Notes under the pieces: generated by a model | Told to the model about the DNA's origin: nothing | Database searches by the model: none | What the model saw: only the letters and a program-made list of their open reading frames with translations | Part shown: in pieces, positions 1-37,541 of the stretch | Position numbering within the stretch: position 1 is the first letter of the stretch | Layout: each line of letters starts with the position of its first letter | Virus record (IMG/VR): IMGVR_UViG_3300035187_001598 | Coordinates: 1-37,541 of that record | Strand: one strand, 5' to 3' | Length of the DNA stretch: 37,541 nucleotides | Origin: a virus | Translations under genes and position numbers: made by a program

Positions 1-180
1 CAACAACAACGGATACTCGAAAAACTGCATCTCTGTTTTTGGTTCTGGAACCCTCGTAGAGGACTGCGAGTTCTTAAACGTCGGTGTTGGTTCGACTGAT
101 CTAGTTGGAGGCACTCCAGAATCTTTCACAGTCTTCGCGAAACTTTCGTCCTCAAACGCAGACGGATCGCAGGGCGCAAT
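1..180. repeat. Terminal direct repeat, left copy (circular junction)
   Basis: These 180 bases recur at 37362-37541 with 178 identities. The mismatches are at 19 (G here, A at 37380) and 53 (C here, G at 37414). Both copies lie within one reading frame, which stays open across the join. This is expected when a circular or circularly permuted genome is assembled and opened at an arbitrary point. Unequal copies argue against a fixed physical terminal repeat and suggest two strain variants or read errors. Confidence 0.9.
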
Positions 181-2374
181 CGTCCGCCGCTGCATATTCC
201 GAGACGTCGGAAATTGCACAGCGTCCGGAGTTTCGACAGTTGTCGCAGAGAACACCTGCGTGTCGATTGGCGGTTACATCGACTCGAGCGCAAATTACCT
301 CTATGCCAGCGGCGTGGTTGTCGAAGACTGTAAGGTTTCCGGGTCGTACAACATCACGACTCAACGCGCACCTTTGCACGGTCTTTCGGTTTCAATCACC
401 AAGGGGGCGGTCGTCACTCGCAACTTTTTCGACGGTTATCAAGGGGTCTGCTACTACGCGGACACATGGCCGCAAATCGGAACCAAAATCTACAACAACA
501 AGGCCACCAACGTCTGGGGCTTTGTCCAGTTGAGTGCGTACAACTGGAACCGTGTGACAGGCGCTCCACTTTATCGGATCCCGTATTTCCAAGACATCTC
601 GATCACCCGGAACACAGCCACAATCGTTCAAGGCGCTGTCACATACTACAATTACACAGTCGCCGCAGACTACGGATTCGTTGTCGCTTATCTCTACGAC
701 TACGACCTGTTCCCGACATATCCCGGCCACACAAACGTGCAGGTTTCCGGGAACTCGTTCACACCGGCCACTGGCAGGAATTACGTCATGTGGAACATCG
801 GTGGATGGTGGCCTCCAATCAACAACTTCGCGGCTCCTCCGACATACAGCTACGTCAACCCAACGATTTACGAGACCGCGTCTGGAGGGGTTGTTGGTGA
901 GTTCAACACGCCCAAGATTTTCACGCTGCCAGTCGATTGGCGCGAGTTCGGTCAGTCGTTCGAGAACAAGGCGATCCGTGACCAGATCGGTTTTGGACGC
1001 GAGAAGTTCGAGAAGGTCTACACTCTGGCGAACGCATCGGAGTCTGAACTCCGAGCGATTTCGCAAAACCAAAACGAGATTGGGAAGATGCTCCGATTCT
1101 TCCAGCTCCACGGGACTGGGGGATCGTTTTGGGTTCCGGTGTGGAGGTCTGCGACAAACCTCTCGGCAAACATCGCGGCGGCATCGGTCACGTTCACTGT
1201 TCAATCGGCAACTGGATTCAAGGTCGGCGACTGGCTGGCGTTCATGCAGCCCGCAGGAATCGTTGCTCGTTCTCGAGTTGTTTCGATTGTCGGGACCACA
1301 ATCACAGTCTCATCCGCTCCCGGTGCGCTCTCAAAGGACGCCACTGTGGTCGCGCCGCTTGTACTCGCCCGCGTGCAGCGTCCGAGGCTCCAATTCGACT
1401 GGAGCAACGACAGCGTCGCGGAGGCTCGATTCCTCGTGTCCGAGGTCCCGCAGGAATACTTCGAGGGAACAGACCAGATCACGTCCAAGAATCTCGGCCT
1501 GCTGCTTACCCGCGGATACATCTACGAGTTGAGCCAGACCATCGGAGGCACGACGACCACGACACGGCTTACCTCGTTCGAGCGCGATCTGACGGTGCTC
1601 GGTCAAACGTACACGGCGCGAAAGATTGACCACGGTGCGATCAAGCAAAGCCTCTTCCTGGACCGGGACGAGATCGACGTCCGGTCAGACGTTGTCGCCG
1701 CGGATCCGTTCGTGAAGATCGCCACGAACCAATCTGAGGCTCCCCTGCGCCTCACCATCAAGTCCGTCGACGTGGTTGGATCTGTTGGTACAGACTCGCA
1801 GGTTCTGTTCACTGGAGACGTCGTCAGCGTCGCCGTAAAGGGTTCTCGTTTGACCGCCAAAGCGGTCTCGGCTGGAACTGTGTTCGATAGGCAGTATCCA
1901 CGCTTCCGGATGCAGGTTGGCTGCAACCATTCTCTGTTCTCGGTGGGTTGCGGATTGCTGACGAGCAACTGGAAGTTCACCGGCACCATCACAAATCCCG
2001 GCACGGCTGGCTTCCCGTTCGAGTTTGTGCTCGGATCAATCGCCCGGGTTGTCGGTGTTCTCCCGACGATCTCCGCGGGTTGGTTTTCCGGCGGCTGGAT
2101 CGAGATTGGGTCCGGGGACTCGATGGTCCGACGTGCGATCATCAACAACACTGCGTTGTCCGCTGGATCGCTCACCGTGACGTTGTCCCGCGACCCGACG
2201 CCATTCCCTGCGGCTGGGACGACGGTGGCTATTTACCCCGGGTGCGACGGTGCTTTCGCGACGTGCAGCAGCAAATTCTCGAACCAGTTGAACTTCGGTG
2301 GGCATCCATTCCTTCCGCCTAGCAACCCGTCGATGTTCCGAGTCTCGAAGAACATCGGAGGAGGAAAGAAGTGA
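1..2374 (+). CDS. Baseplate hub protein, C-terminal part (beta-helix end, second hub domain, DUF2163-like)
   Basis: This is the 3' part of the gene that starts at 36286. The frame is open from base 2 and matches the frame at 37363, giving a joined protein of 1149 residues, of which 360-1149 lie here. Residues to about 640 continue a parallel beta-helix, with recurring rungs such as VVEDC, VRRC and VTRN. Residues about 670-845 form a globular domain with FWVPVW and NDSVAEARF motifs, related to one at the N-terminus. Residues about 855-1149 resemble DUF2163/BR0599 phage proteins, with an RFRMQVGCNHSLFSVGCGL stretch near 998 and a final segment of CDGAFATC, NFGGHPFLP and NP. In gene transfer agents this family is the tail hub. 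The following peptidase gene fits that order. An ATG at 260 is not the real start. Confidence 0.85.
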   Translation, partial: NNNGYSKNCISVFGSGTLVEDCEFLNVGVGSTDLVGGTPESFTVFAKLSSSNADGSQGAIVRRCIFRDVGNCTASGVSTVVAENTCVSIGGYIDSSANYLYASGVVVEDCKVSGSYNITTQRAPLHGLSVSITKGAVVTRNFFDGYQGVCYYADTWPQIGTKIYNNKATNVWGFVQLSAYNWNRVTGAPLYRIPYFQDISITRNTATIVQGAVTYYNYTVAADYGFVVAYLYDYDLFPTYPGHTNVQVSGNSFTPATGRNYVMWNIGGWWPPINNFAAPPTYSYVNPTIYETASGGVVGEFNTPKIFTLPVDWREFGQSFENKAIRDQIGFGREKFEKVYTLANASESELRAISQNQNEIGKMLRFFQLHGTGGSFWVPVWRSATNLSANIAAASVTFTVQSATGFKVGDWLAFMQPAGIVARSRVVSIVGTTITVSSAPGALSKDATVVAPLVLARVQRPRLQFDWSNDSVAEARFLVSEVPQEYFEGTDQITSKNLGLLLTRGYIYELSQTIGGTTTTTRLTSFERDLTVLGQTYTARKIDHGAIKQSLFLDRDEIDVRSDVVAADPFVKIATNQSEAPLRLTIKSVDVVGSVGTDSQVLFTGDVVSVAVKGSRLTAKAVSAGTVFDRQYPRFRMQVGCNHSLFSVGCGLLTSNWKFTGTITNPGTAGFPFEFVLGSIARVVGVLPTISAGWFSGGWIEIGSGDSMVRRAIINNTALSAGSLTVTLSRDPTPFPAAGTTVAIYPGCDGAFATCSSKFSNQLNFGGHPFLPPSNPSMFRVSKNIGGGKK

Positions 2375-2811
2375 GCTGGTGGACTCCAGAACGTTTGTCT
2401 GTCCTTGAGGCCGAGGCCGTGTCGTGGATCGGCACTCCGTTCGCTGCGAACAGTTGCAGCAAGGGTGATGGGGTCTCGTGCGCGAAGCTCTGCGGGGCGC
2501 TCTACACGGCAGCAGGATTCGAGGGGATCATTGTCCCCGACGGACAGACCGCGCACGCACGGTTCAATCAAGCGTCGATCATCACGCCGTTCTTCGACGG
2601 CCACCCATACTTTGCATCCGTAGACCCAGCCTCTCGTATGGCTGGAGACGTCCTCGGATTCACGATTGGAAAATGCGTGCATCACATGGGAATCCTCCTT
2701 GGTGGAGATCACTTCATCCATTCGTGCGACCATGTCGGAGTGATCGTCTCGGATGTAAAAGACGCGACGTGGCTGAGTCGGCTGTCTAACGTGTGGAGAC
2801 CTAAAGCATGA
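2371..2811 (+). CDS. NlpC/P60-type tail-tip peptidase
   Basis: This is a 146-residue protein starting with GTG in a GTGA overlap with the hub gene, behind a strong GGAGGAGG ribosome site. Residues 12-120 resemble phage NlpC/P60 cell-wall peptidases. A candidate catalytic Cys37 sits in GVSCAKLCG, His105 in VHHMGILLG and His117 in HFIHS. The Asp that usually precedes the cysteine is Ser here. Proteins of this type sit in the tail tip and cut peptidoglycan peptides during DNA entry. In gene transfer agents the homologous gene (g14) lies between the DUF2163 hub gene and the large tip protein, exactly as here. No signal peptide is visible, consistent with incorporation into the virion. Family assignment rests on motifs and context. 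Confidence 0.8.
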   Translation: MSWWTPERLSVLEAEAVSWIGTPFAANSCSKGDGVSCAKLCGALYTAAGFEGIIVPDGQTAHARFNQASIITPFFDGHPYFASVDPASRMAGDVLGFTIGKCVHHMGILLGGDHFIHSCDHVGVIVSDVKDATWLSRLSNVWRPKA

Positions 2812-3011: not shown

Positions 3012-6000
3012 ATGGGAGGCGGAGGAAAAGGCGGCGGCGGCGGGGCATCAACTTACGACTACTTCGGCTCGATCGCCGGTGCGATTTGTATAGGACAGAT
3101 CGACTCGATCCTCGCGATCCTCATCGACTCAAAGATCGTTTGGCCGAAAGAGCCGGAGTGGAAATCCGGTGAGTCCATCTCAATCTACGCGTTGAGGACG
3201 TACAACGGCGCAGTCTATCAAGCGCTCCAAAGTCACACGACGTCCGGTGCCAACCAGCCGCCTAACTCCAGTTTCTGGACGCGCTACCAGTTGGTCCGGC
3301 CTGCGGCTCCCACTTGGACTGCTGGGACGACGTTCCAGCAGTACAGTTACTGCACGTTCAACGGGACGGTCTACATCGCCGTCCAGACCCACACCTCAGC
3401 GGTTGCCAACCAGCCTCCCAACGCGACCTATTGGGCAGCGTCCCAGATTGGCCCGCAATCGATCACGGTTCCGGATTATGGCACCGCGTATCTTTACTGG
3501 GGCACAGACACCCAAACGCTCGACACTGTCTCCGAAAAAGTCCTAAGCGACAACGGTCACCCACCGTACAGAAGGCAAGCGATTCTCGTATTGCGGAACT
3601 TCTATTTCGGTCGCGAACGAAACGCTGCGCCAAACGTCGAGGTGATCGTCCGGAGGGCTCCGCAACAGTCTGCGATCCCGTTGTCATCGAGTGCAGCCTA
3701 CCTAGGAGATGGACAGGCCAACCCGGTTGGAGCGCTGGTCGACTTGTACACGAACCCGGTCTATGGGGCCGGACTCACGCTCGACGCCGTTGGAGGACCA
3801 GACTCAACGACAGCCGCGGCAACGGCGAACGCTCTGATCACAGAAGCAAACCAGACGTGGATCTCTCCGATCCTCCAGCAGGCCAAGACGCTGCGCCAAT
3901 TCACCGCGGACATGCTCGCGTATTTCGACGGCTGGATGCGGTTCTCGAAGTCCGGCGAGATCGAGTTTGGGAAGTTTCCGCACAACACCGCCGCTCCGGT
4001 ATTCACTCCCGCAAATACGATCGACTTCTCCGATCTCATCGACGAGATCACCTACTCAGCCGAGGGTTTTGCGAGCACCTACAACCAGACCCAAGTGAAG
4101 TTCAACGACCGCGAGAGGTCGTTCAAAGACAGCGCAGTCAACAGCGTGTCTGGGTGGAACATCGCGGTGACCGGTGAGCCCAGGACAGCGAAGATTGACC
4201 GCCCGTGGATCACGCGACGCCAGCAGGCAAGCGACCACGCAGCCGAGTGGCAGAAGATTTACTCAGAGCCAAAGGTCAGTGGGAGCCTCGTGGTCCGCTC
4301 CGAAAAGGCGGAGACGATCCTCCCCGGCGATCTATTCCTTCTCACGCACGACGATCTCTCGGTGTCGATGGTTTGCCGGTGCATTGGCAAGGACATCGCG
4401 CAACCTCCAGCGGGTCGCGTCACGATCCGATTCGAGACTGACAGGGCGTCGTCCGGCCTGCCGTACCAGCCGACACCGGCGGCAAGCTCCGGCATCGAGT
4501 ACCCAGACGCGGAACAGATCACGCTCTACCAGTTCTTTCAGCCTCCCGCAGGAATGATCGAAGGCGCTGAGACCTATTCTCTTTGCGCTCTGATGGCCCG
4601 CACAAGCGCTTTGACGACCGGGGCCACGGTCTACCTACAGCAGGAGGACAAGTCGGCCTTCTACGAGTTGGAGAAGACCATTGGGTTTGCTGTCCACGGA
4701 ACGCTTTCGCAGTCTTACAACCCAACGATGACCCGCACGACGTCGACTCGTGCGCGGACTTCTAACGTTGTCACGATCACCACGCCGACAGCCCACGGTC
4801 TGATGGCTGGAATGACTGTCCAGATCAGTGGTCTAGGAGGAAACGGCTTCAACGGTCGGTTCCAGATCGAGACAGCTCCCCCCAATTCTCCAAACCTTTT
4901 TACCTACATATCGCCGGGAGCAAACGTCGGCACGACAACCGACACTGGCGGCACGATCGACCCGTTCAACGACGACGTAAGCGAGGATTTCCGTTTCACG
5001 CTCAACGCGAACTCGGTGTCTGCTGACGTCGCTCGAATCCTGTCGGCCACCCAGACCGAGGACGCGATCAACGACCGTCGGATTTACGTCATGTCGTTCG
5101 ACTACACGGACACGACTAAGTTCGAGATCTTCACCCTGCGCGCTGCCGCGGTCACGAGTGGAGTCTACCGTCTGAAGCTCCGCCGACAGGAGTTTGGATC
5201 AACCAAACGTACCGGAGCGACCGGTGATCTTGTCTGGATCGGATACCGAAGCGACCTCGTGCCGCTTCAGCCCCAGCAGTTCATCGGAGCGGTTGCAGAG
5301 AACAAGAACGTCACGTTCCGAATCCAGTCCCAGAACGGGGTCAACACTGCCGATCTTGCTGACACGACAGTCTGCCCCAACATCGCGTTCGCATTTGCGG
5401 ACCCCTACAAGCCGGAATTCGTTTTCGAGTCGGTCCGGAAGGACGGTGTCGAGATCACGGACTTCTCAGTCCACTACGAGACCGACGACGTGTGGAACGT
5501 GAGCGGCAAGATCACAGACAAGTCCGGCAACATCACCGATTCTTCGGTCTACGCTCTCGACGGCGCAATCAAACTACCAATCTGGATCAACGCCTCAGAA
5601 CCGGTCGCCGAGGTGCGTTTTGCGACTCGTTTCGTTCTGCCGTCCGTCGGGACATGGCAGGTCTTCGCAGAGGCCCGCGATTCGTCTGGGCGCATCGTCC
5701 GAAAGCAACTCACCGCGGCGGCTGCTCCGAACACACCGGTCACGATCCAAATCCGCCAGAACAACCAAGCGGCCACACCAACGGCCAGCCCAGTCGGACA
5801 AGTGTTCCCTCAAGGCACCGCATGGCCAAAATCGGTGACGCTTTCATCTGCTACGGCTGGAAGCTCAATCGACTACGAGATTGTCGACGTCGGAGCGATC
5901 TCAACCGGGACTTGGACCACGATCGCTGCGACGAGTGGAACGGTGTCCGTTGCGTTGAACAAACGCGTTTACGCTCGCGCCCACACAACCGGCCAGAACT

Positions 6001-6086
6001 ACAGTTCGACCGTATTTTGGGACTACACAGAAGCGTGGAACACGCTTAGGCCAAGCGGCGGAACGATCTCAACGACGGCGTCTTAA
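3012..6086 (+). CDS. Large tail-tip / host-specificity protein (gpJ or GTA megatron-like)
   Basis: This 1024-residue protein ends the tail operon. Its start is a glycine-rich MGGGGKGGGGG followed by YDYFGSIAGAICIG, a form common at the N-terminus of central tail-tip proteins. Residues about 50-90 and 101-141 are two tandem modules, each ending in ANQPPN plus an aromatic and Trp; they resemble carbohydrate-binding modules of family 5/12. The middle (about 160-480) carries the conserved host-specificity region, including ILVLRNFYFG, ITYSAEGF and a LPGDLFLL-like segment. Beta-rich modules follow. The C-terminus (about 925-1010) resembles a chitobiase C-terminal-type repeat (PKSVTLSSATAGSSIDYEI). 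It should form the tail tip that contacts the cell surface. It has no TIM-barrel domain that I can see, unlike the gene transfer agent homologue. Start: ATG after GTAAGGAAACACT. Confidence 0.85.
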   Translation: MGGGGKGGGGGASTYDYFGSIAGAICIGQIDSILAILIDSKIVWPKEPEWKSGESISIYALRTYNGAVYQALQSHTTSGANQPPNSSFWTRYQLVRPAAPTWTAGTTFQQYSYCTFNGTVYIAVQTHTSAVANQPPNATYWAASQIGPQSITVPDYGTAYLYWGTDTQTLDTVSEKVLSDNGHPPYRRQAILVLRNFYFGRERNAAPNVEVIVRRAPQQSAIPLSSSAAYLGDGQANPVGALVDLYTNPVYGAGLTLDAVGGPDSTTAAATANALITEANQTWISPILQQAKTLRQFTADMLAYFDGWMRFSKSGEIEFGKFPHNTAAPVFTPANTIDFSDLIDEITYSAEGFASTYNQTQVKFNDRERSFKDSAVNSVSGWNIAVTGEPRTAKIDRPWITRRQQASDHAAEWQKIYSEPKVSGSLVVRSEKAETILPGDLFLLTHDDLSVSMVCRCIGKDIAQPPAGRVTIRFETDRASSGLPYQPTPAASSGIEYPDAEQITLYQFFQPPAGMIEGAETYSLCALMARTSALTTGATVYLQQEDKSAFYELEKTIGFAVHGTLSQSYNPTMTRTTSTRARTSNVVTITTPTAHGLMAGMTVQISGLGGNGFNGRFQIETAPPNSPNLFTYISPGANVGTTTDTGGTIDPFNDDVSEDFRFTLNANSVSADVARILSATQTEDAINDRRIYVMSFDYTDTTKFEIFTLRAAAVTSGVYRLKLRRQEFGSTKRTGATGDLVWIGYRSDLVPLQPQQFIGAVAENKNVTFRIQSQNGVNTADLADTTVCPNIAFAFADPYKPEFVFESVRKDGVEITDFSVHYETDDVWNVSGKITDKSGNITDSSVYALDGAIKLPIWINASEPVAEVRFATRFVLPSVGTWQVFAEARDSSGRIVRKQLTAAAAPNTPVTIQIRQNNQAATPTASPVGQVFPQGTAWPKSVTLSSATAGSSIDYEIVDVGAISTGTWTTIAATSGTVSVALNKRVYARAHTTGQNYSSTVFWDYTEAWNTLRPSGGTISTTAS

Positions 6087-29673: not shown

Positions 29674-31803
29674 ATGTCTTGGAATATTGAGAAACCCGGT
29701 GACCGCATCAATGGCCCGGTGACAATCACCGGAAACACGACGCTGACAGGAACCGCTACCATCAGCGGCGACCTCACGGTCGACACGTCGACGCTCAAGA
29801 TTGATGCGACCAACAACCGCGTGGGTGTTAACACTGCCACCCCGTCGACTGCGTTTGACGTGGTCGGAGACGCTAAGGTGAGCGCAAATCTGCTGATCGG
29901 AAGCTCGTCGCTGGTCAACGGCCCGCTACAAGTCGGAAGCACCGGGATGGCGTCGTCGTATCTCCAAATGCTTGCCGCCCCGACAGGGTTTTCGGCAATT
30001 CATTTTGGAGATGCAGGCGCTGGCACCGCTGGTTCTTACGCTGGGTATCTGTTCTACGATCACACCGGAAACTACTTATCGTTCGGAACAGACAGCGTTG
30101 CGCGGTTCCTAATGTTAGGAAGCCAGTTCATGTCCTATAGCAACGGGACGGCTTCGGCACCTGTCTTCTCAATGGCAACAGATGGGAACACCGGCCTCTA
30201 TTTCCCAGCGGCAGACACCATCGCGCTGGCGACTGGTGGCACCGAAAGGCTCCGTGTCGACTCCTCCGGCAACCTTGGGTTGGGGGTGACGCCTAGTGGA
30301 GCATACAAACTCGAAGTCGGTTCATCTCAAAGTTCTGTTTTTCTAGCAAGCACAGTTGGATATGGAGCAGCAAGTGAGCAGTACTCATCGTTTCGGTTTC
30401 ACAATACGTCATTTTCTGGCGGAAACAGCGAAATCCGGAACATTGTAAACGGATCTGTCTCTGTAGGGTCTTCACTTTCGTTTTATACATCACAAAACGG
30501 AACTGGTGCCTTAACGCAGAGGATGACCCTCGACGCCTCGGGCCGCCTTGGCATCGGGACGGCGACGCCGACGCTTCCACTACACGTCGAGTGGAATGGG
30601 CAAGCCGAACTTCGTCTCAAAAGCACCAGCGCATCCGGACTGGCTGCCATTGGGTTCGTCGCAGGTGGGCAGACAAATCCGTGGTACGTTTACACGAACT
30701 CCAATCGAGACTTCATTTTTCAAGACAACACCACCGAGCGCCTTCGCATCGCTGCAAACGGAACCGTTGGATTGGCAGTCACTCCTAGCGGATGGACTGG
30801 CGGTTCCGTCCTAATGATGGCCCCTTCTGGTGCGATTTCATACATGGGAACCACAGGAAACATGGTTTCCAATGGATACTTCAGCGACCAGTGGCGGTTT
30901 TACGGAAACGGCAGGTTCTCGCAGTATTACCAAAACAACGGCGACCACGTTTTCTATTCGTCCGCGAACAACACGTCCGGGGCAGCCGCAGCTCTGACGC
31001 CTGTCGAGGTTGCGAAAATCAACTCAGCCGGAAGGTTTGCCGTCGGCTCGGCTGTTGCTCCCCTCAACGCGGCGCAAATCCAAGGCGCAGGCCAAGCGGC
31101 GACATCGGTTTCTGACTCCGGAGACGCATCCGCGCTGTTCCTTTCGGACACCGGTGGCGGCGTGAACAACGGTGGCCTGCTGTTGTTTGGTGCGGCAACC
31201 ACCAACGGGCAGAGGCCTCACGCTGGGATCAAATCGCTGCTGAACAACGGTGGTGCGAATGGCACCGCTGATATGATTTTCGTCACGAGGACGGCGACTG
31301 GAGACGCCACGCTGTCGGAGAAAATGCGGCTGACGACGGCCGGCAACCTTGGGTTGGGGGTGACGCCGAGCGCGTGGAACACATCGTTTCGGGCGATCGA
31401 GTTTTCGAGCGCAAGTCTGATGTCTGGCACCAATGGCTCGGTTGCCCAGTTGGGTGCGAACACATTCATCAACGCTTCCTCTCAGTACATTTACAAAGGC
31501 AACGGAAAGGCTGCCATCTACCAGCTCTCGAACGACGGGCTGCACGTCTGGTACAATTCCGGAACCTCGAACGGAACTGGTGGCGCTGCTTATTCTCCGC
31601 TGCAAAGAATGGTCCTCGACGATTCCGGAAATCTGCTTGTCGGAATGAGCACCGCAGCAACTTCAAGCTCCAAGACTTTGCACCTCGGAAACGCTACCGC
31701 TCCGTCGGCCAATCCTTCGGGAGGCGGTGTCCTCTATGTGGAGGGTGGTGCGCTCAAATACCGCGGATCCTCTGGAACGGTCACAACCATTGCCAACGCT
31801 TAA
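29674..31803 (+). CDS. Long tail fibre with repeated beta motifs
   Basis: This is a 709-residue protein. The N-terminus (GPVTITGNTTLTGTATISGD) and repeated units of the type LRVDSSGNLGLGVTPS, MTLDASGRLGIGTATP, LRIAANGTVGLAVTPS, MRLTTAGNLGLGVTPS and MVLDDSGNLLVGMST, spaced some 70-190 residues apart, are typical of trimeric phage fibres. Many such proteins end in an intramolecular chaperone (peptidase S74); none is visible here, where the end is LYVEGGALKYRGSSGTVTTIA. It is followed by a fibre-assembly-like gene. It probably binds the host surface. Leader CCCGCAAAACC lacks a Shine-Dalgarno site. Confidence 0.85.
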   Translation: MSWNIEKPGDRINGPVTITGNTTLTGTATISGDLTVDTSTLKIDATNNRVGVNTATPSTAFDVVGDAKVSANLLIGSSSLVNGPLQVGSTGMASSYLQMLAAPTGFSAIHFGDAGAGTAGSYAGYLFYDHTGNYLSFGTDSVARFLMLGSQFMSYSNGTASAPVFSMATDGNTGLYFPAADTIALATGGTERLRVDSSGNLGLGVTPSGAYKLEVGSSQSSVFLASTVGYGAASEQYSSFRFHNTSFSGGNSEIRNIVNGSVSVGSSLSFYTSQNGTGALTQRMTLDASGRLGIGTATPTLPLHVEWNGQAELRLKSTSASGLAAIGFVAGGQTNPWYVYTNSNRDFIFQDNTTERLRIAANGTVGLAVTPSGWTGGSVLMMAPSGAISYMGTTGNMVSNGYFSDQWRFYGNGRFSQYYQNNGDHVFYSSANNTSGAAAALTPVEVAKINSAGRFAVGSAVAPLNAAQIQGAGQAATSVSDSGDASALFLSDTGGGVNNGGLLLFGAATTNGQRPHAGIKSLLNNGGANGTADMIFVTRTATGDATLSEKMRLTTAGNLGLGVTPSAWNTSFRAIEFSSASLMSGTNGSVAQLGANTFINASSQYIYKGNGKAAIYQLSNDGLHVWYNSGTSNGTGGAAYSPLQRMVLDDSGNLLVGMSTAATSSSKTLHLGNATAPSANPSGGGVLYVEGGALKYRGSSGTVTTIANA

Positions 31804-33577: not shown

Positions 33578-33804
33578 CGGAGTGCGCGGTCCGCTTAGGG
33601 ATGACGGTCTCCCAAGCCGTCGATCACAGTCCGGCCCAGCTTAAACTTCTGATGGAGGCAGCCTCTCGGATTGACGCATCCGATGGGCTCCTCAGTCTGC
33701 ACGTCACCTACGCCGCGACAGTTGCGACGCAGGTGAAGGAGGGTCGCCCCATTATGGAGCGCCTCCAGAAGCAACTATTGAAGAAAGCGAAGGGCCATGG
33801 CTGA
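33224..33804 (+). CDS. Frameshifted tail assembly chaperone (gpGT-like)
   Basis: A -1 shift at T TTT TTC (33472-33478) would take ribosomes from the gpG-like frame, after Phe85, into the frame that runs to 33804, giving a 193-residue protein. The added 108 residues are helical (SVNLADYVAECAVRLGMTVS, QAVDHSPAQLKLLMEAASRI) and end 8 bases into the tape measure gene. GT-type fusions are made at low level in almost all lambda-like siphoviruses and recruit tube subunits. A separate start at GTG 33481 is possible, but it lacks a good ribosome site. Confidence 0.82.
33472..33506 (+). promoter_or_regulatory. Programmed -1 frameshift signal
   Basis: The slippery heptamer T TTT TTC is in the zero frame of the chaperone gene (codons CGT TTT TTC). 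Ten bases downstream a hairpin GCCGG (33489-33493), 8-base loop, CCGGC (33502-33506) can pause the ribosome. The -1 frame is open from here to 33804. All three elements are at the expected spacing. Confidence 0.85.
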
Positions 33805-36289
33805 CACAAATCTGCGGATCAAAATCGGACTGACTGGATCGGCGGAAGTCGCGTCCGGACTCAAGGCCATTGGCGGCGCTGCCAGCAGCCTCAAGACGAG
33901 CCTTCTAGCCATCGGCACGGCTCTGGCAGGGGCTGCTGGTCTCGGAGCCCTTGGCGCGGCTGCTGTCGCCACTGCGAGGCTAGGCGGTCAACTGTCTGAC
34001 CTGTCGGCCCGAACTGGGATCTCCGCCCGGTCACTGATTGTTCTGCGGCAAGCCTTCCAAGACGCTGGAGTGGGTGCCGAGGCTGTCGGCGGAACGATCA
34101 ACCGCCTACAACGCACGATCGTCGAGGCCGCTTCCGGGGGTGGGGCTGCTGCGGATGCATTGGCTGGCCTCGGGATCTCCGCTCAGAGCATCGCCACGCT
34201 CGCGCCGGAGGACCAGTTTTCGCAGGTCGCCGCGGCAATCTCCGCAATCGCAGACCCGGCCCAGCGCTCCGCGGCTGCCATGGCAATCTTCGGGAAGTCT
34301 GGGGCCGAATTGCTGCCGCTCTTTTCCGAAGGCGGAGCGATCCAGAACGCGGAGAAGGTCCTCGGCAATATGCCGGACGTCCTGTCCCGGAACGTCCCAG
34401 TTCTCGACGCGATCTCCGACTCGTTCGATCGGCTACCCAACAAGGCGACCCAGTTGTTCGCCGGGATCCTCGATCAGCTTGGCCCCACGGTGCAGGCCGT
34501 CCTCGAAGCGTTCGAGTCGATCGACCTCACTGGTATCGGCCAGAAGATCGGGGCCTTCGTCAACGTGGCGATCGACGAGTTCAAGGCTGGCCGCTTCGGT
34601 GACTTCATCGCGTTAACAGTCGAGGCTGGATTCGAGCTGGGAATCAACGCTGTCGGTTCGATGTTCGCGAAGCTCCGCGACTACCTAAGCTCAAGCACGT
34701 TCTGGATCCAAGTCGGCAATGCGCTTCTGACGTCAATCAACGCCGCGATGAAGGGCGTCGTGACGCTGATCCTCAATCTGTTGGTGCCGTTCGCTGCCGT
34801 CTTTGATTACGTCAAAAACGGGCTGATCTACGCATTCCAGTCGGCGGTCAGCGCTTTCAACACGGCGTTCCGGACAGCAATCAACGTCATAATCGAGAAG
34901 CTCAACTCCTCGTTCGGGGCTCTCGGCGTGAGCATCCAGAAGCTACCGATGGCCGTCGAAGAGGCTTTCGAGGCTCCGGACTTCTCCAAATCTTGGGACA
35001 TCGCAAAGCAGGGAGCGGAAGCTGGCACCGAATACGCACGCGAGTTCTTCGATTCATCGACGCAAGCGTTCCGGGAACTAGGTGGGATCTCGGACTTCTC
35101 GGTTGGAGATTCTGCGCTCAAGCGGCTCGACGAGCTGATGGCATCCCGCCTCAAGGGTCGCGAAGACACTGCAGGTGCAGGCGCTCCAGTTCCGGCAAAG
35201 GGTGGCGGTGCAGAGCCCCCGATGGACATGGCGGTCACTCTCAAGGAGCGAGAGATCGACCTCACTCGGAAGCTGGACATCATAAATGAACGCAAGGCCC
35301 GGGTTGAGAACTCGTGGCTGACGACGAGCGCGGAGAAGTTCGCAGTTCGCAAAAAACTGCTCGAGCAGGAGGCCGAGATCATCGAGTCCGAGATCGCGTC
35401 TCTCGACGAACTCAGCAAAAAGGCGCTCCCGTCCGAGCAGCTCGCAATCGAGCAACGGATGGCGAAGCTGCAAAGTCGATCCGGTGGAATCCAGACCGAG
35501 AGGATGGGAATGGGTCCAGACCCGGAGTCGTTCTCGGAGAACTTCTCGGCTACCCTCATCAATCTCCAGAACCAATTCGGCACCGTTGCCCAGCAAATGG
35601 CCCAGACGTTTGCTGACGTGTTCAACGCAGCGACAGCGTCGATCTCCAACAGCATTCAAGGGCTTATCTACGGCACGATGACTTGGGGCGCTGCGCTCGC
35701 GAACATTGGCACCGGGATCATCAAGAGTCTGATCCAGTCGTTTGCGGACATGGTGGCGTCGTGGATCATGTCGCATGTGATAATGAAGGGCGTGCTGACT
35801 GCGTGGGGAGCGTTCAAGTCTCTGTTCGTCGCCAAAGACGTGGCTGTCTCAAACGCCGGTGAAGCTGCAAAGACTCCAGCGCTCGCGACGAATGCGACAC
35901 TGGCATCCATCAGCTCATGGGGAATCGCGGTCGGCGTCGGACTCGCTGCCATTGCCGCAATCCTCGCTGCCACTGGAGCGTTTAAGGAGGGTGGCTACAC
36001 CGGCGACGGCAATCCCAACGACGTCGCTGGCATCGTCCACCGCGGCGAGTACGTTGTCCCGGCTGACGCTGTAGACCGCATCGGTGTGGGTACACTCGAG
36101 GCGATGACATCCGGAGGACCTGCGACCTCTCCGATGTTCACCAGTGGTGCCGCTCCGGCTCCGATCACGCTCAACATGGGCGTGTTCGACGATCCTCGTC
36201 GCCTCTCTGATTGGGCTCGATCCAACGAAGGGCGCACGGTTCTCATCGACATTCTGAAGCAACACGCTCACGAGTTCACCGCCTCATGA
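33797..36289 (+). CDS. Tail tape measure protein
   Basis: This is an 830-residue protein. N-terminal part: LKAIGGAASSLKTSLLAIGT, the hydrophobic run ALAGAAGLGALGAAAVATA, LSDLSARTGISARSLIVLRQ, then PEDQFSQVAAAISAIADPAQ and IFGKSGAELLPLF, the conserved signature of lambda-like tape measures. Further membrane-compatible segments lie near 310-340 and at about 690-725. The C-terminus has EGGYTGDGNPNDVAGIVHRGEY, a recurrent motif. A central coiled-coil segment is at about 495-560. By the 0.15 nm per residue rule the tail would be about 125 nm long. It overlaps the chaperone and hub genes. Confidence 0.93.
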   Translation: MADTNLRIKIGLTGSAEVASGLKAIGGAASSLKTSLLAIGTALAGAAGLGALGAAAVATARLGGQLSDLSARTGISARSLIVLRQAFQDAGVGAEAVGGTINRLQRTIVEAASGGGAAADALAGLGISAQSIATLAPEDQFSQVAAAISAIADPAQRSAAAMAIFGKSGAELLPLFSEGGAIQNAEKVLGNMPDVLSRNVPVLDAISDSFDRLPNKATQLFAGILDQLGPTVQAVLEAFESIDLTGIGQKIGAFVNVAIDEFKAGRFGDFIALTVEAGFELGINAVGSMFAKLRDYLSSSTFWIQVGNALLTSINAAMKGVVTLILNLLVPFAAVFDYVKNGLIYAFQSAVSAFNTAFRTAINVIIEKLNSSFGALGVSIQKLPMAVEEAFEAPDFSKSWDIAKQGAEAGTEYAREFFDSSTQAFRELGGISDFSVGDSALKRLDELMASRLKGREDTAGAGAPVPAKGGGAEPPMDMAVTLKEREIDLTRKLDIINERKARVENSWLTTSAEKFAVRKKLLEQEAEIIESEIASLDELSKKALPSEQLAIEQRMAKLQSRSGGIQTERMGMGPDPESFSENFSATLINLQNQFGTVAQQMAQTFADVFNAATASISNSIQGLIYGTMTWGAALANIGTGIIKSLIQSFADMVASWIMSHVIMKGVLTAWGAFKSLFVAKDVAVSNAGEAAKTPALATNATLASISSWGIAVGVGLAAIAAILAATGAFKEGGYTGDGNPNDVAGIVHRGEYVVPADAVDRIGVGTLEAMTSGGPATSPMFTSGAAPAPITLNMGVFDDPRRLSDWARSNEGRTVLIDILKQHAHEFTAS

Positions 36290-37541
36290 TCGCAACGACC
36301 ATCAACTCGATCGCAGCCTACCTCGTAAACGACGTCCCAGACTGGGAGTCGAGCGTCAGAGCCACGTTTGAGGCTGTCAGCCAGTTCGAGGAGTCTCTGT
36401 CCGGTCACGAGGCACGCAGACCGCACGCGCACACAATCCGGATGCGGCTCCAGCAGTCCTACACGCTGGAGGGATCAACCGCTTTCACGTTTGCCGCGCT
36501 GCTCAGAGACTACAAAACGCAGCCGATTCTTGTTCCGCTATACCAGTCGAGCGTCGTCTGGTCTGACAGGGCAAACGCTCCGATCACCGGGAAGCTCAAG
36601 CTCGCGCACAAATCGGATTGGTCGCAGTGGGAACTCTACACGACCGTCGAGCCCGGTTGGGTGCTCGCGACGGACTACGTCTGCCCAGTCGTCTGGGGCC
36701 GTCTTGAGTCCACTGAGGTCCGGTGGCTCAACGATTCGGTGGCCAAGTTCGAGATGGATCTCATCGAGAACGGTCCAGAGGAATACGCCATCAGCGCGAA
36801 GGAATATGCCTTCGACGACGGCCCGAGTACCGCCGGATGGGACGCTCCAAACCGATGGGTCGGACCCGCTCTCACGGAAGCGGACAAGCCATATCGTCCC
36901 GAATACTACAACGAGAACACAGGAGCCTACACTCCCAACACGTTCACACCGCTTGCCAACACGGGCACAAACGCGGCTTTGCGAATAAACTGGGTTCTCA
37001 TAGCGCAAGGGCGCGTCGAGCTTGCGGAGGGTATATACACGCTCGGCGTGACTGGGTCGACGGATCCATCATTTTACGCTGCACCGTACAATATGATTTT
37101 GTTCGGAGACACTACTCCGATTCTTAATGGCAAAGGCTACCCAAAGGACAACGTCAAAATCATTGGGCGCGGAATCGGAAAAACGACGCTCCGAATCTGT
37201 GACAACAGCCCGCAGTTGAGGGCCGGAGGTGTCGGAGGAATGCCGGGAGACATCATGCGGATGATCTACTCGACAGCCCCATCCGGAGTTCCGTTCGGAG
37301 GTCAGCCATGCAACAACGCACTGATCAAAGGCATCTCGTTCGATGCTAACCACAACGAAGCCAACAACAACGGATACTCAAAAAACTGCATCTCTGTTTT
37401 TGGTTCTGGAACCGTCGTAGAGGACTGCGAGTTCTTAAACGTCGGTGTTGGTTCGACTGATCTAGTTGGAGGCACTCCAGAATCTTTCACAGTCTTCGCG
37501 AAACTTTCGTCCTCAAACGCAGACGGATCGCAGGGCGCAAT
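36286..37541 (+). CDS. Baseplate hub protein, N-terminal part (runs off the window, continues at base 2)
   Basis: This is the 5' part (residues 1-418 here, of which 360-418 lie in the repeat) of a 1149-residue protein completed at 1-2374. It starts in an ATGA overlap with the tape measure gene. Residues 1-165 form a globular domain with PILVPLYQSS (around 80) and LNDSVAKFEMDL (around 150), in which I see a second copy at residues 670-845. From about 235 a beta-helix starts with the pectate-lyase-like AQGRVELAEGIYTLG and NVKIIGRGIGKTTLRI. The N-terminal domain takes the place where gene transfer agents encode a separate distal tail protein. It is the central tail hub plus a likely surface-binding or degrading module. 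Confidence 0.85.
   Translation, partial: MIATTINSIAAYLVNDVPDWESSVRATFEAVSQFEESLSGHEARRPHAHTIRMRLQQSYTLEGSTAFTFAALLRDYKTQPILVPLYQSSVVWSDRANAPITGKLKLAHKSDWSQWELYTTVEPGWVLATDYVCPVVWGRLESTEVRWLNDSVAKFEMDLIENGPEEYAISAKEYAFDDGPSTAGWDAPNRWVGPALTEADKPYRPEYYNENTGAYTPNTFTPLANTGTNAALRINWVLIAQGRVELAEGIYTLGVTGSTDPSFYAAPYNMILFGDTTPILNGKGYPKDNVKIIGRGIGKTTLRICDNSPQLRAGGVGGMPGDIMRMIYSTAPSGVPFGGQPCNNALIKGISFDANHNEANNNGYSKNCISVFGSGTVVEDCEFLNVGVGSTDLVGGTPESFTVFAKLSSSNADGSQGA
37362..37541. repeat. Terminal direct repeat, right copy (circular junction)
   Basis: This is the second copy of bases 1-180, with A at 37380 and G at 37414. In the encoded protein the first change is silent (Ser) and the second is Val here versus Leu in the left copy. 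Removing one copy gives a circle of 37361 bases. Confidence 0.9.

Follow-up and report, generated by a model that had tools for sequence, protein, structure and literature searches.

The tail genes of a viral contig (record IMGVR_UViG_3300035187_001598, 37,541 bp, analysed over its full length and termed here the window) raise the question of how a phage can build a large extra domain into the core of its baseplate, and what such a domain may do there. The gene concerned runs off the contig end. The two ends of the window share a terminal overlap of 180 bp (Table 1), so the contig is circular or permuted, and ORF 36286-37541 therefore continues at 181 and stops at 2374, giving a protein of 1149 residues. 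The frame stays open across the join with either copy of the overlap. A reading made earlier from the sequence only had also proposed a single 1149-residue protein. This part stands, as a sibling contig (IMGVR_UViG_3300032233_001405) carries an uninterrupted ORF of 1180 residues that is 85% identical over residues 1-1144 and has the same domain order; the span 36286-37541 given for the protein, however, covers residues 1-418 only. The two bases that differ between the copies of the overlap probably reflect a circle closed from mixed strains, or else a permuted contig. These mismatches are also what speaks for an artefact, in which joined contig ends or a chimeric assembly created the architecture. 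With the whole ORF uninterrupted and in identical domain order in an independent contig, an artefact is exceedingly improbable and was rejected.

Table 1. Coordinates of the tail-tip features in the window; residue numbers refer to the joined 1149-residue protein.
Feature	Position	Strand	Remarks
Terminal overlap	1..180 = 37362-37541	+	180 bp identical but for 2 mismatches
Insert part two, residues 419-666	181..922	+	profile link to PF13229 protein family
Second Dit lobe, residues 667-850	923..1474	+	equivalent to JBD30 gp49 domain IV; OB-like decoration region (GFKVGD...)
DUF2163 / BR0599 upper-baseplate domain, residues about 860-1149, stop codon	1502..2374	+	PF09931, PF09356
NlpC/P60 peptidase gene, next in tail-tip module	2371..2811	+	PF00877 E 1.5e-7
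Central tail hub gene (Phage-tail_3)	3012..6086	+	PF13550, PF02839; phrog_1101 tail protein
Separate tail-fibre gene	29674..31803	+	phrog_18345 tail fiber protein E 1.3e-25
Tape measure protein gene	33797..36289	+	several PHROG tape-measure families; directly abuts Dit gene
First Dit lobe, residues 1-185	36286..36840	+	equivalent to JBD30 gp49 domain III
Insert part one, residues 186-418	36841..37541	+	long lobe junction
Beta-helix-like core, residues about 288-612	37147-37541 joined to 181-760	+	profile link to PF13229 protein family

The two stretches that flank the insert are lobes of a distal tail protein (Dit). When residues 1-182 and the second copy were each represented by a profile of 17 proteins, the two profiles matched with a score of 42.5 (E 5e-6), whereas 300 column shuffles reached at most 21.1, and a second profile comparison gives E 1.4e-5 over 130 columns. 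The motifs noted earlier as repeated on both flanks are thus similar beyond chance, and the flanks share one fold; neither lobe profile matches a DUF2163 control profile. In hhalign, lobe one aligns to residues 174-371 of JBD30 gp49 (E 0.0013), and lobe two to residues 402-567 of the same protein (E 0.0021) and to residues 378-556 of YuA gp72 (E 2.5e-9), so that gp49 is matched in order by both lobes. An AF2 model of the sibling protein, made from 30 sequences, covers the lobes and the DUF2163 domain well, with pLDDT mostly 80-93 in both lobes. When compared by VIA-align, residues 7-881 of this model superpose on the Chi Dit (8vjh_B; Z 22.0, 354 residues, rmsd 5.9) and residues 4-877 on JBD30 gp49 (8rk3_D; Z 21.0, 345 residues, rmsd 5.0), after which the structural match falls to Z 12. 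Lobe two carries a beta-rich insertion of 60 residues at the place of the OB decoration (model strands 787-826), where lobe one has only a short one.

The Dits of JBD30 (gp49, PDB 8rk3), Chi (8vjh) and YuA (gp72) have the same tandem beta-sandwich lobes, the same place in the gene order and apparently a similar OB-like decoration region in lobe two. Unlike the protein described here, they are not fused to the DUF2163 protein, and nothing large is inserted between their lobes. The JBD30 Dit forms a trimeric ring whose subunits have two lobes of the same fold, and through it the symmetry steps down from six-fold in the tail to three-fold in the baseplate (PMC11445458). The lobe duplication is therefore real but already known for this class of Dit, since the JBD30 and Chi proteins are two-lobed as well.

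Past the second lobe lies the DUF2163-like domain that had been proposed there, with PF09931 (E 2.8e-8) and PF09356 (E 1.4e-19) both above curated Pfam cut-offs. Its relatives in the PDB, which include GTA and R4C proteins, are 8vjh_D (Chi gp27), 6tba_7A, 8rk3_g (JBD30 gp50) and 8gtc_P. Upper baseplate or baseplate hub 1 proteins of this kind (JBD30 gp50, Chi gp27, GTA, R4C) share the pair PF09931 and PF09356 and four cysteines near the C-terminus, which form a putative metal site in JBD30 gp50 and are kept in 25-29 of 29 sequences here. In YuA, JBD30 and others, DUF2163 is encoded by a separate gene after Dit, and the Chi protein is separate too; in the window lineage it is fused to Dit. The gene order of tape measure, Dit, DUF2163 and hub, with Dit between the tape measure and the DUF2163 and hub genes as expected for a two-lobed Dit, is that of JBD30 and YuA. 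The protein is thus a two-lobed Dit of the JBD30/Chi type fused to a DUF2163 upper-baseplate protein, the counterpart of JBD30 gp49 plus gp50. It had been called a central hub. Its Dit lobes and upper-baseplate domain contradict this name, which belongs to the next large gene, 3012-6086. The latter has a match to CBM_5_12, a carbohydrate-binding module of the chitin type, at residues 63-85, common to one relative (L004).

What sets the protein apart is the insert of 481 residues (186-666), placed precisely where the two lobes meet. In IMG/VR, 41 loci were found by a scan with the second lobe and DUF2163, and the lobe junction, taken from the conserved end of lobe one to the GFGR motif of lobe two, was compared in 29 distinct fused proteins (28 loci and the window). 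It spans 37-50 residues in all 27 insert-free relatives, 522 in the window and 554 in the sibling. Present in 2 of 29 fused proteins, the insert is thus the exception in the family. Identity to the nearest insert-free relatives is 51-53% over lobe one, 44-47% over lobe two and 67-68% over DUF2163. In a tree of the scaffold, the two insert-bearing proteins pair (100/100) inside well-supported nodes of insert-free proteins, which indicates that the insert was gained. These comparisons show that a 481-residue domain was inserted at the lobe junction in one phage lineage, and a single gain would be the simplest reading of the tree.

In two relatives, the stretch from tape measure to Dit holds three or four additional genes (L004:4545-7320 and L005:4299-7261); one is tail-fibre-like, one weakly LamG-like, and some have starts that resemble signal peptides. 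The idea that the insert replaced intervening fibre genes, as found at this place in JBD30, YuA, L004 and L005, was dropped because the tape measure and Dit genes of the closest insert-free relatives also abut.

The sequence-only reading took the insert for a beta-helix of the pectate-lyase type. Rungs are visible by eye (VVVEDCKV, ISITRNTA, VQVSGNSF and others) and suggest a right-handed beta-helix, and a simple rung motif, when counted, reaches only weak significance (P 0.06 and 0.015). Searches of Pfam (E 10), PHROGs, NCBIfam and PDB sequences gave no direct match to the insert, nor did a Pfam carbohydrate-binding module match it, and no relatives were found in annotated phages, plasmids, bacterial genomes or the PDB. 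A distant relative in a virus contig (L083), however, matches PF13229 (Beta_helix) above cut-off. A profile of the two insert sequences scores 39.8 against the family of this protein, compared with a maximum of 24.8 in 300 column shuffles and at most 17.3 for 11 decoys, which were other proteins of the same phage. Because the L083 protein was picked from 158 pattern-matched stretches, the significance of the link is somewhat inflated; it would still be good, if not overwhelming, support for a beta-helix. Rows of the PF13229 family were left out of the insert alignment, as MAFFT placed them on the wrong domains. In the whole-protein model from 30 sequences, only two cover the insert and its pLDDT is about 25; a whole-protein AlphaFold run from 5 sequences gave pLDDT 27. 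Overall, the insert is very probably a beta-helix, as the profile link to a PF13229 protein argues, with no direct match to a pectate-lyase or tailspike family in the searches above.

The two insert-bearing proteins differ from each other mainly within the insert. It is 72% identical between window and sibling, with both flanks at 96-97%; identity drops at about residue 205 and returns at about residue 665. The insert has a dS of 1.42 and a dN/dS of 0.14, whereas the lobes and DUF2163 have a dS of 0.23-0.44. A step of this kind in dS inside a single gene indicates recombination as the source of the insert in one sibling at least. The low dN/dS (0.08-0.17 for residues 185-600) indicates in turn that the domain is constrained. 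The insert thus appears, as judged from these substitution rates, to be a constrained cassette that has been exchanged. Elsewhere in the tail module, about 700 bases of the tape measure gene (from 1793 to 1073 bases upstream of the Dit start) are too divergent from the sibling to be aligned, another sign of mosaicism. The fibre shows mosaicism as well: its genes (L032:2394-3494 in the sibling) have a common N-terminus but differ in sequence and in length (709 residues in the window, 366 in the sibling).

How might such a cassette act? By analogy with JBD30 and Chi, three Dit copies would form a ring, whose six lobes would fit the six-fold symmetry of the tail tube and provide the transition to the three-fold hub. 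The beta-helix would leave the ring on the inter-lobe loop, placing three helices around the tail tip; their position outside the ring is suggested by the placement in the inter-lobe linker, which is between 37 and 554 residues long in the family. The helices would then bind, and perhaps trim, host surface polysaccharide, bringing the tip to the cell. Recombination within the conserved lobes would allow phages to exchange the insert as a swappable specificity cassette, and exchange of this pattern is typical of adsorption modules. Binding to glycans is suggested by the probable fold, the exchange pattern and the precedent of the evolved Dits. Dit inserts that contain carbohydrate-binding modules restore adsorption or infection of lactococcal phages on strains covered with exopolysaccharide (PMC10688798), and saccharide-binding inserts are on record in the Dits of several phage groups that infect Gram-positive bacteria (PMC7291167). 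Most likely, the insert acts in the manner of an evolved Dit, as a glycan-binding and possibly cutting module of the tail ring. The model as a whole, a trimeric ring with outward beta-helices that bind and perhaps trim host polysaccharide and can be swapped, is in our judgement somewhat favoured. An earlier claim had a possible polysaccharide-binding or cutting module built into the central hub and not carried on a separate tailspike; what survives of it is a probable beta-helix that is part of a ring protein, not of the hub. As the window also has a separate fibre gene, the insert is an extra module that need not replace all other adhesins, and the fibre could be the real adhesin.

Phage depolymerases are usually built on a beta-helix. 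The insert may accordingly be seen as active itself, cleaving capsule or exopolysaccharide as a lyase or hydrolase and making the tail ring an enzyme, and the purifying selection on its conserved core (residues 185-600) fits this reading as well. The family profile searches of the insert, however, revealed no enzyme family match or identifiable active site, and known enzymes are mostly trimeric spikes, whereas here each helix would hang on one ring subunit. An active depolymerase is a less likely alternative, with cleavage by the insert possible. Its boldest form, with three catalytic beta-helices turning the Dit ring into a sugar-cutting spike and host range changing as cassettes are exchanged through lobe recombination, is unlikely.

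A minor alternative is that the insert is no receptor binder but holds another adhesin, the fibre for instance, as a docking arm. Extensions of this kind have precedents: that of the Sf11 Dit holds tailspikes (PMC12724387), and the Dit and upper baseplate of JBD30 hold fibres (PMC11445458). A separate, diverging fibre gene is present in both window and sibling. A docking arm is nevertheless quite improbable, given that a 481-residue beta-helix is far larger than known docking helices and that the close relatives without it, whose tape measure and Dit genes already abut, have no obvious need of a dock.

Comparison with known systems places the glycan-binding module, the reading we prefer, among several partial likenesses. 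Evolved Dits of lactococcal, lactobacillus and streptococcal phages also have a large and variable internal insert with both ends aligning to an insert-free Dit, as is found here. Their inserts are carbohydrate-binding modules of the BppA type in galectin-domain loops of hexameric Dits, whereas the present one is a beta-helix-like domain between the lobes of a double Dit. The fusion is thus likened to an evolved Dit in its action and is not filed as one. The distal tail protein gp17 of Sf11 is another Dit enlarged for host attachment; its extension holds separate trimeric tailspikes, while here the likely binding domain lies within the ring protein. Beta-helix tailspikes and depolymerases probably share with the insert a right-handed beta-helix on the tail tip, but they are separate trimeric spikes, which the insert is not, and it matches none of their families. 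None of the papers searched describes a Dit with an inserted beta-helix, though such a description may still exist.

The protein is best described as a real, uncommon architecture in which the idea of the evolved Dit recurs in a different Dit class, with an insert of another probable fold and with the upper-baseplate domain fused to it as well. Dit inserts that help adsorption are known from phages of Gram-positive bacteria, in hexameric Dits with a single lobe. In the present case the Dit has two lobes, is itself fused to the next baseplate protein and has acquired a probable beta-helix at the junction of its lobes. The family offers a clean natural comparison of related scaffolds with and without the insert, and two diverged insert alleles in nearly identical scaffolds. 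It can thus be asked how a symmetry-adapting ring tolerates a domain of 50 kDa, and whether a tail ring can carry receptor specificity.

Some relatives of the fused protein vary in other ways. In one fused Dit (L061:4471-5370, from IMGVR_UViG_3300009168_001108), lobe one is preceded by about 290 additional residues resembling a serine protease of the trypsin type (LLVTVKHIAAFIG ... DICYVFVDQDI ... DQDSGSPVF). No Pfam family matches the extension at E 0.1; judging by the motifs of the extension, this tail ring protein may bear an N-terminal enzyme module. In four loci (L067, L069, L070 and L072), proteins of about 480-493 residues seem to have only one Dit lobe followed by DUF2163, which points to lobe fission and fusion in the family. 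At L058:3807-5342, a histidine kinase and response regulator gene directly precedes the Dit fusion, at the place of the tape measure in most relatives. The Dit fusions L005:7320-9431 and L004:7317-9404 contain TGVPPV or TGILPV peptides, which we take to resemble dispersed repeats of Verrucomicrobiota or Planctomycetota genomes and which may hint at the host.
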